Positions 60,047-62,700 of a stretch of 64,000 nucleotides of DNA are shown here, piece by piece (the first letter of the stretch is position 1; every line of letters begins with the position of its first letter). The translations under genes and the position numbers were made by a program. The DNA comes from Clostridiales bacterium (GTDB taxonomy: Bacteria > Bacillota > Clostridia > Christensenellales > Aristaeellaceae), in contig JAIKWZ010000022.1 of the NCBI GenBank assembly GCA_024684375.1, positions 1 to 64,000 on the forward strand, read 5' to 3'. The notes beneath the pieces are model-generated. The model did not search any database, was not told the origin of the DNA, and saw only the letters and a program-made list of their open reading frames with translations.

Positions 60047-60715
60047 ATGAAGATCGGCGTTATATCCGACACCCATGACCTGATGCGTCCACAGGTGCTG
60101 GAACAGCTCAAGGGCTGTGAGCTCATCCTCCACGCGGGGGATATAAGCAGCCCCGTGATACTCGACAGCCTCAGGAACATCGCCCCGGTCAGGGCAGTCA
60201 GGGGCAACAACGACCGGGAGTGGGCTGACGGCCTTCCGCTTACGCTGGAGTTTGAGCTTGGCGGCCTTAAAGTCCTGATGACCCACAAGAAGCGGGACCT
60301 GCCCCGGGACCTGACCCCCTACGACCTGGTAGTGTTCGGCCATTCACATACGTATTACTGCGAATGGGAGGACACGGGGGGCGGCAGGCAGACGCTGCTG
60401 CTCAATCCCGGCAGCTGCGGCCCGCGCAGGTTTTACCAGCCAATCACCATGGCGCTGCTCACGCTTGACGAAAACGGCTTGCACGCAAACAAAATCGACA
60501 TAGGCAGCGTCAAAGAACCGACCCCTCCTCAAACCGAAGCCGACCTCGCAAGCCTGGTCGAGACGGTAGTCAAGGAGACCGCGAAAGGACGCAGCGTGGA
60601 GCAGATCGCGCAGAAGCATGGCATCGATGCCGTCCTGGCAGAGAAGATTGCCCGCCTGTACCTGACCCACCCCGGCGTAACGGTGGAAGGCATACTTAAA
60701 AAGATGGGAGTGTGA
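60047..60715 (+). CDS. YfcE/MJ0936-type metallophosphoesterase with C-terminal helical extension
   Basis: 'MKIGVISDTHD', 'LHAGD', 'VRGNNDRE', 'VFGHSHTYY'. Confidence 0.9.
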   Translation: MKIGVISDTHDLMRPQVLEQLKGCELILHAGDISSPVILDSLRNIAPVRAVRGNNDREWADGLPLTLEFELGGLKVLMTHKKRDLPRDLTPYDLVVFGHSHTYYCEWEDTGGGRQTLLLNPGSCGPRRFYQPITMALLTLDENGLHANKIDIGSVKEPTPPQTEADLASLVETVVKETAKGRSVEQIAQKHGIDAVLAEKIARLYLTHPGVTVEGILKKMGV

Positions 60716-61836
60716 GAATGATGAAAAGCTTTTTTGCCGCCCTGCTGGCCCTGCTTTTGGGCACAAGCCCCATCGCAGAAGCGGGGCTCGTCGTTGGTAC
60801 GGATGTGAGCGCCGCCGACATAACCGACTTTTACTACACCGTGGACGCTTCCACATATCCCCCGCATTACCAGCGCTACCGTTTCTGGGCTGAGGACGGA
60901 AAAAAGTGGTTCTTCCACGAGTCACGCCAGGGAGATTCCTGGCCCCAGACGGAAGAAAACACAGTGTTATCCGGCACGCTGGAGTTGACGGACGAGGAAT
61001 GGAGCAGGTTCATAGACTGCGTCGCGGGCGGCAAGGTGAAGGCCCGCGAGGAAAAACCTGAGGACGGAGACTCCGGCCCCTTCATGTACCTGTACTGGAC
61101 GGGAGACGAGGGCAAGAATCAGCAGTTCAGCTTCGCCTCTTACGAAAAACGGCTGGAATTCGAGGCGCTGTGCGAGAAGCTCGCGGGCAACCATGTGCTT
61201 ACGGCTTTCTTTTTCCGCAGGGGTGGATATATGGTGCCTGTTTCCCGTGAAGTCGCGTTCCGCGAAGGCAAGTATTATCTTATGGATGACGAGACGCCGC
61301 TGCGCGAGCTTGATGCCGCGTTCATCTCCGAACTTGATGATATCATATCCGATCACAAGCTGGAAACCTGGAACGGTTTTCGCGGCAGCAATCCCTATGT
61401 GCTGGACGGCGAAGGCTTTAGCCTTGAATTAGAATACGCGAACGGAAAAAGGGTGTACGCCTCCGGGGAAAACAATTTCCCCGATGGCTACCATTCCGCA
61501 GTAAACGTGATCGAAGAGCTTTTTACTCGGGAAGAGATGGCGCTTATCGCGGGCACGTACAAATACGAAAAAGAGGGCTTCGGGGGAGACTTTACCATCA
61601 CCCTCAACGCGGATGGCACCTACACCTTTTACGAAGGCCCCCTGAGCAGCTACATGGGAAGCGGCACCTGGGAGACATACTACGGCGCTGTGTATATGTA
61701 CGAGGACAAGCAAGCGGGCTTCGACCTCCGTTTCACGTTTGGCCTGCACGACGGAACGCTCTCCTACTCAGGCTCGAATTCCGATGGATTCCCGTACGTG
61801 AAAGTGACGGACGGTGAAAAGTTCATAAAGCAGTAA
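60712..61836 (+). CDS. Secreted hypothetical protein
   Basis: Signal peptide; 374 aa; translationally coupled to preceding gene. Confidence 0.7.
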   Translation: MRMMKSFFAALLALLLGTSPIAEAGLVVGTDVSAADITDFYYTVDASTYPPHYQRYRFWAEDGKKWFFHESRQGDSWPQTEENTVLSGTLELTDEEWSRFIDCVAGGKVKAREEKPEDGDSGPFMYLYWTGDEGKNQQFSFASYEKRLEFEALCEKLAGNHVLTAFFFRRGGYMVPVSREVAFREGKYYLMDDETPLRELDAAFISELDDIISDHKLETWNGFRGSNPYVLDGEGFSLELEYANGKRVYASGENNFPDGYHSAVNVIEELFTREEMALIAGTYKYEKEGFGGDFTITLNADGTYTFYEGPLSSYMGSGTWETYYGAVYMYEDKQAGFDLRFTFGLHDGTLSYSGSNSDGFPYVKVTDGEKFIKQ

Positions 61837-61891
61837 AAAACCGCGTCAGGTCCCGTTAGCAAGATCTGACGCACAAAAGCTGTGTGCACTG

Positions 61892-61920
61892 TTGACAAAT
61901 GCACAGTTGTATGCTATTAT
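61892..61920 (+). promoter_or_regulatory. Near-consensus sigma-A promoter with no ORF downstream
   Basis: TTGACA-17 nt-TATTAT. Confidence 0.75.
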
Positions 61921-61926
61921 GTCGCC

Positions 61927-61988
61927 GTTAGCGAAAGCTAATAAAGTTACCGCAGCCTCCCTCCCAATCGGCTGCGGTAATGCTTTTA
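61927..61988 (+). ncRNA. Candidate small RNA: GAAA-tetraloop hairpin plus terminator hairpin with CCUCCCUCCC loop
   Basis: TTAGC-GAAA-GCTAA; TTACCGCAGCC-tccctcccaatc-GGCTGCGGTAA followed by TGCTTTTATTT. Confidence 0.5.
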
Positions 61989-62531
61989 TTTGGTCAGCAG
62001 CTCGTCGGGCAGGCGGTACACCGCCTGATAGAGTATCGTGCCGACCAGGAACACCGATAACGCCTCGCCGATGCCCACTGTGAGCATGGTCAGGGGCAGG
62101 TAACCTAAGCCGTGCGCTTCTTCCGCGCCAAAGCCGCTGAAACCGTAGCACGCCCATACCACCGTGCCCACGATGAGCGCATTGAGTATAACCGGGAAGC
62201 TTACGGCCAGCCAGTAGCGTGAAGTCTTCACCTTGGGCTTATTGTAACCCACTTTGTAGGTGAGATACGCCGCCGCAAGAGTAGTCAGTGAGCCGAAAAT
62301 AACGTCCCAGATCACGCCGCCGCCGATCAGGTTGGCGATCAGACAGCCTATGAACAGGCCGGGTATCGCTTCCGGCATGAACAGGGGCAGTACGCACAGC
62401 GCTTCCGACAGTCTTAACTGTATCGCGTATTTGTCCAGTCCCATCAGATGGGTTATGTAAGTCAGGATCACGTAGATCGCCGCGATCGCGGCGCCGCGGG
62501 TAATGTAAGAAACCGAAAACTCTTTCTTCAT
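61986..62531 (-). CDS. queT: QueT family queuosine-precursor transporter
   Basis: 'AIYVILTYITHLMGLDKYAIQLRLSEALCVLPLFMPEAIPGLFIGCLIANL'; preQ1 riboswitch upstream. Confidence 0.9.
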   Translation of the reverse strand: MKKEFSVSYITRGAAIAAIYVILTYITHLMGLDKYAIQLRLSEALCVLPLFMPEAIPGLFIGCLIANLIGGGVIWDVIFGSLTTLAAAYLTYKVGYNKPKVKTSRYWLAVSFPVILNALIVGTVVWACYGFSGFGAEEAHGLGYLPLTMLTVGIGEALSVFLVGTILYQAVYRLPDELLTK

Positions 62532-62564: not shown

Positions 62565-62572
62565 ATCTCCTT

Positions 62573-62615
62573 TTCCTGGTTTTGTTTAAGGACAGGATGG
62601 ACCTCGAACTGTCCG
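62573..62615 (-). promoter_or_regulatory. preQ1-I riboswitch aptamer
   Basis: Minus strand: GGACAG-TTCGAGGTCCATC-CTGTCC-TTAAACAAAACCAGGA. Confidence 0.85.
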
Positions 62616-62700
62616 TTATATTCCGCCCCCGGGAAGGAGGGGGAGAAACTGCATTCATGCCGGGCGGCATTCCGGCCCGAGCCCGTGGCAGGGCACGAGC

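Follow-up and report, generated by a model that had tools for sequence, protein, structure and literature searches.

LhrC, from Listeria, has UCCC loops, the terminator loop included, that were shown to pair with the Shine-Dalgarno region, and it does not need Hfq (PMC4132741). Among the C-rich sRNAs of the Firmicutes, RsaE, FsrA, and SprD have an exposed UCCC that binds G-rich ribosome-binding sites (PMC4132741). ErsA pairs with amrZ via an unstructured U-rich region (nucleotides 26–56), which it also uses for algC, and not via its terminator loop (PMC5819304). Finally, bidirectional terminators between convergent genes are a common arrangement (PMC7566282).

We examined a locus from an uncultured Clostridia-type bacterium whose genome is 77% complete. 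The window is the whole stretch of DNA that was analyzed (64 kb). For statistics we used 15% of the genome, which is a 433-kb sample comprising the window and further stretches, with genes called by a codon-usage script. An earlier note on this DNA had inferred a trans-acting sRNA of roughly 60–65 nt that converges on the queT 3' end and targets Shine-Dalgarno sequences with its terminator loop. The features of the locus are listed in Table 1. The upstream neighbor, a 374-aa ORF, has no match in Pfam. It has relatives in 19/100 genomes from the family, and many of the relatives' matches span residues 1–160 or 160–374 alone, which suggests two domains.

Table 1. Features in and around the convergent gap, with positions in the window.
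Feature	Position	Strand	Basis or details
374-aa ORF, upstream neighbor on the element's strand	60712..61836	+	
Convergent intergenic gap	61837-61985		between the 374-aa ORF (+) and queT (-)
Distal (second) queT terminator	61835..61872	-	GCGTCAG...CTGACGC, then GG and TTTTTT
TGTGCA-N11-TGCACA dyad spanning the -35	61883..61905	+	TGTGCA 61883-61888, TGCACA 61900-61905
Sigma-70/A-type promoter TTGACA-17-TATTAT with TGn extension	61892..61920	+	sequence and enrichment statistics
Predicted small RNA, ~65 nt	61927..61991	+	predicted start 7 nt past the -10; predicted end from the U tract
5' hairpin GUUAGC-GAAA-GCUAAU, GNRA tetraloop	61927..61942	+	fold, -6.0 kcal/mol
Terminator hairpin TTACCGCAGCC/GGCTGCGGTAA with tail TGCTTTTATTT	61947..61991	+	sequence, fold
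12-nt loop UCCCUCCCAAUC (DNA TCCCTCCCAATC)	61958..61969	+	unpaired, predicted probability ~1
queT, preQ1 transporter component, convergent neighbor	61986..62531	-	Pfam PF06177, E 1.8e-40

The predicted RNA shares its architecture with LhrC: one hairpin, then a terminator hairpin whose CU-rich loop contains UCCC. However, LhrC exists in several copies that each bear three CU-rich sites, whereas this element is single-copy in the genome, has one CU-rich site, and has no Rfam match or demonstrated sequence relation to LhrC. By analogy, LhrC seems to be the best functional parallel. UCCC is exposed here as it is in RsaE, FsrA, and SprD, but in the terminator loop, and there is no sequence match to these RNAs in Rfam. 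In fact, no Rfam family reaches its gathering threshold for the predicted RNA, which agrees with the earlier note, where no family name was recognized. The best match below threshold is Pseudomon-1/ErsA (RF01719; 21 bits, as compared to a gathering threshold of 50), which aligns on CCCUCCC. ErsA also has a terminator hairpin with a CCCUCCC loop, but it is from a different phylum, and going by the alignment, we consider this to be a resemblance of one loop and not membership in the family. As for bidirectional intrinsic terminators, the element is like them in having A/T-rich tails on both sides and in lying directly behind queT. It is unlike them in that a promoter of its own lies upstream, another hairpin is present at the 5' end, and the CU-rich loop is unusually long.

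The promoter (TTGACA at 61892–61897 and TATTAT at 61915–61920, with a spacer of 17 nt and TGn before the -10) matches 11/12 consensus bases. Sites of this quality are strongly enriched in this genome: the 64-kb window contains 11 of them, while 0.45 are expected from a first-order model, and the 433-kb sample contains 51, as compared to 4 in the reversed sequence. Of these 51 sites, 37 immediately precede a gene; the remaining 14 are orphans. The sample's 54.8 kb of intergenic DNA has 42 such sites, versus 1.15 in dinucleotide shuffles, and 20 that bear TGn, versus 0.1 in the shuffles. These ratios correspond to intergenic false-positive rates of ~3% for this class of promoter and ~0.5% for those with TGn. 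The promoter at 61892–61920 is very probably a real polymerase site. It serves no ORF, and we found none in the expected transcript, so the earlier note was right about both the promoter and the lack of an ORF behind it. Two of the other orphan sites lie ahead of tRNA pairs, and a third lies ahead of a skipping-rope RNA. Orphan promoters can therefore be a sign of RNA genes in this genome. Just one of 29 convergent gaps contains such a promoter, and it is the gap studied here.

The predicted RNA also has a stable fold. The fold of 61925–61993 has an energy of -26.9 kcal/mol (z = -5.2), and most of this is from the terminator hairpin (-19.2 kcal/mol on its own). Its stem has 11 base pairs (61947–61957 with 61970–61980) and is followed by a U-rich tail (UGCUUUUAUUU, 61984–61991). 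The 5' hairpin begins at the predicted first base, G61927, and when the first 20 nt are shuffled, just 0.02% of the shuffles fold as stably. Both TTAGC-GAAA-GCTAA and the hairpin with the loop are located where the earlier note had placed them. There is a rho-independent terminator at the 3' end of the predicted RNA, with a moderate U tract: the tail on the + strand scores 1.46, which is among the weaker U tracts of convergent terminators. The promoter enrichment, the fold, and the statistics for the 5' hairpin all support the prediction of a promoter-driven RNA of ~65 nt that converges on queT, and a short RNA is probably made from the site at 61927.

The hairpin at 61947–61991 has other roles as well. 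On the - strand (tail CTTTATTAG), it is the hairpin that queT transcription meets first, 5 nt past the stop codon; on the + strand, it is the nearest, and the only, U-tailed hairpin downstream of the 374-aa gene. Since the hairpin serves as the terminator for both genes, it has a sufficient reason to exist without an sRNA. It might be, then, that there is no separate transcript, with a fortuitous match to the promoter consensus next to a hairpin that serves just to terminate the two convergent genes. Given the low false-positive rates for such promoters, and especially those with TGn, we consider this to be quite unlikely.

The dyad had been proposed as a possible operator. The inverted repeat is indeed present around the -35, but we rejected the operator role: the genome contains no second exact copy of the dyad, and allowing one mismatch gave no clear excess over the control. 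Read on the strand of queT, the dyad forms a weak hairpin with the tail CAGCUUUUGU. Another repeat in the gap is CCGTTAGC, which is present twice (61854–61861 and 61925–61932, 71 nt apart). One copy is in the distal queT terminator hairpin and the other is at the start of the RNA's 5' hairpin. From the sequences, this pair is possibly the trace of a duplication, or it could have arisen by chance.

The distal queT terminator, which the earlier note had missed, is the reverse complement of 61843–61872 with TTTTTT at 61840–61835, and it adjoins the stop codon of the 374-aa gene. On the queT side, the tails score 1.99 (proximal) and 2.63 (distal), which are both above the + strand's score. Because the distal terminator exists, any queT mRNA that reads past the first hairpin would be antisense to the whole element. 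The terminator hairpin is shared with the queT transcript, and the overlap would be complete if queT is transcribed as far as the distal terminator. Also, the 12-mer TTGGGAGGGAGG, which is the complement of the loop and its flank, has its sole exact copy in the genome in the queT 3' UTR. With one mismatch allowed, there were 6 matches in the genome and 12 in the reversed control, so extended targets are not overrepresented across the genome.

These observations raise the idea that the promoter or the RNA is a cis element for queT, which would lower its output or set its 3' end by polymerase collision or by antisense pairing. The RNA would be perfectly complementary to queT mRNA over its whole length if transcription continues to the distal U6 terminator, and within the genome the loop finds a perfect 12-nt partner in the queT 3' UTR alone. 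On the other hand, most queT mRNA may stop at the proximal hairpin and so never span the RNA, a preQ1 riboswitch is probably present ahead of queT itself, and ~45 other queT loci lack a similar combination of convergent promoter and CU-rich loop. Overall, we view regulation of queT in cis as unlikely.

The candidate PreQ1-I riboswitch is in the queT leader (62570–62617, - strand) and scores 20.2 bits, which is below the gathering threshold of 39. It has a GGACAG/CUGUCC stem, with UC before the 3' strand of P1 and an A-rich tail. These features match the description of class I type I preQ1 riboswitches (PMC11625349). Between the candidate and the start of queT, there is another hairpin (GGGCCTGCCGTGAGCAGGCCC and GTATTTTG).

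If an RNA is made from 61927, could it act in trans? According to the predicted fold, it has an unpaired UCCC motif in the UCCCUCCC loop. TCCC is present in the loop of just 1/80 first terminators in the 433-kb sample. To quantify pairing, we compared the loop to 339 predicted start regions, with a cutoff of below -12 kcal/mol, and we repeated the comparison with 60 permuted loops. The real loop pairs this well with 28% of translation starts, as compared to 7% of gene interiors. However, the permuted loops pair with 19 ± 5% of starts, and 4 of the 60 permutations do as well as the real loop, so C-richness alone explains most of the affinity for Shine-Dalgarno sequences. For Hfq (PF17209), there was no match in seven genomes from the genus, which are incomplete, while the controls from E. 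coli and B. subtilis were positive.

In the mechanism that we propose, a vegetative-type promoter in the convergent gap would start the RNA at about 61927. Its first bases would fold into the GNRA hairpin, which would shield the 5' end, and transcription would end after ~65 nt at a bidirectional terminator co-opted from the genes on either side. Within this terminator, the UCCCUCCC loop would do the work by binding G-rich RNA. Its main partners would be Shine-Dalgarno regions, bound in trans and without Hfq, and it might possibly also pair with the GGGAGGGA loop, its complement in the 3' UTR of queT. From the sequence, it is plausible that the element is a lineage-specific, Hfq-independent sRNA or a queT antisense RNA. 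That the RNA acts through its CU-rich loop is our tentative model, to which we give somewhat less than an even chance.

We also searched for relatives of the element. Using blastn, we found none in seven genomes from the genus or in ~300 genomes from the family. Where we inspected weak blastn matches in relatives, they turned out to be coding DNA, unrelated terminators, or look-alike promoters that belong to other genes. The earlier note had looked to a covariance search in related genomes, but a model built from the single sequence identified no homolog in 150 genomes from the family and 297 from the order. Two order-level hits (E ~0.01 per genome across 297 genomes) were judged by E-value alone, and the best other matches that we inspected were coding DNA or plain terminators, about as frequent as chance would predict. 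Collections of plasmids and phages gave no match, and the exact loop-hairpin pattern is absent from viral contigs. Along with its being single-copy, this led us to reject a mobile-element origin.

In the genomes compared, neither neighboring gene has a counterpart of the element beside it. The queT loci from the same genus have unrelated downstream DNA without the promoter or the loop, and none of the ~45 queT loci had a comparable convergent promoter plus a CU-rich loop. The earlier note had named, as evidence against an sRNA, homologous loci that keep just the terminator hairpin; the queT loci of the genus lean in that direction, but these species are distant, at only 56–67% identity in QueT, and allow no close comparison. 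We also considered whether the element is linked to the 374-aa gene instead of queT and rejected this, as the orthologs have other DNA downstream, without the element. With no homolog in the genomes searched, we see neither covariation nor any direct sign of selection. Judging from these comparisons, either the element is young or it evolves too quickly to trace at these distances.

Transcription without function is a serious rival. In this scenario, a real promoter yields a short RNA that has no selected function: the promoter is recent or drifting, and the hairpin is nothing more than a shared terminator. The lack of conservation at any distance fits with this. Also, a role in bidirectional termination is enough to explain the hairpin, as such terminators are common between convergent genes (PMC7566282; 29 local gaps). 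Such a terminator would not, however, account for the 12-nt CU-rich loop or for a GNRA hairpin that begins at +1, and the expectation of just 0.1 such promoters (11/12 with TGn) in the 55 kb of intergenic sequence suggests that selection maintains this one. We give a functionless RNA nearly as much weight as our tentative model. A more specific form of the proposed mechanism is that a bidirectional terminator gave rise to a young, species-level sRNA: a promoter would have arisen upstream of a loop that was by chance anti-Shine-Dalgarno, yielding a minimal, 65-nt, Hfq-independent translational repressor. This full scenario seems improbable to us. If the sRNA is confirmed, it would be a minimal one from a lineage of Clostridia where Hfq was not found, and it would illustrate how new regulatory RNAs can grow out of terminators between convergent genes. 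If the transcription is noise, then a strong orphan promoter and a terminator are not sufficient to call an sRNA.

The skipping-rope RNA mentioned above (RF02924, 53 bits) is at L132:1939-2024 (G000 C37:81939-82024, + strand), directly behind an 11/12 promoter. The L132 region has four strong promoter sites without an associated gene. A second orphan promoter (G000 C37 ~82622-82550, - strand) lies about 0.6 kb away from this RNA. Within 70 nt, it is followed by GTGGGG...CCCCCAC and then by a strong terminator (GCGCCCGGCATCGGGCGTTTTT). This segment has no match in Rfam, and from its sequence, it is a possible unnamed RNA of ~70 nt.
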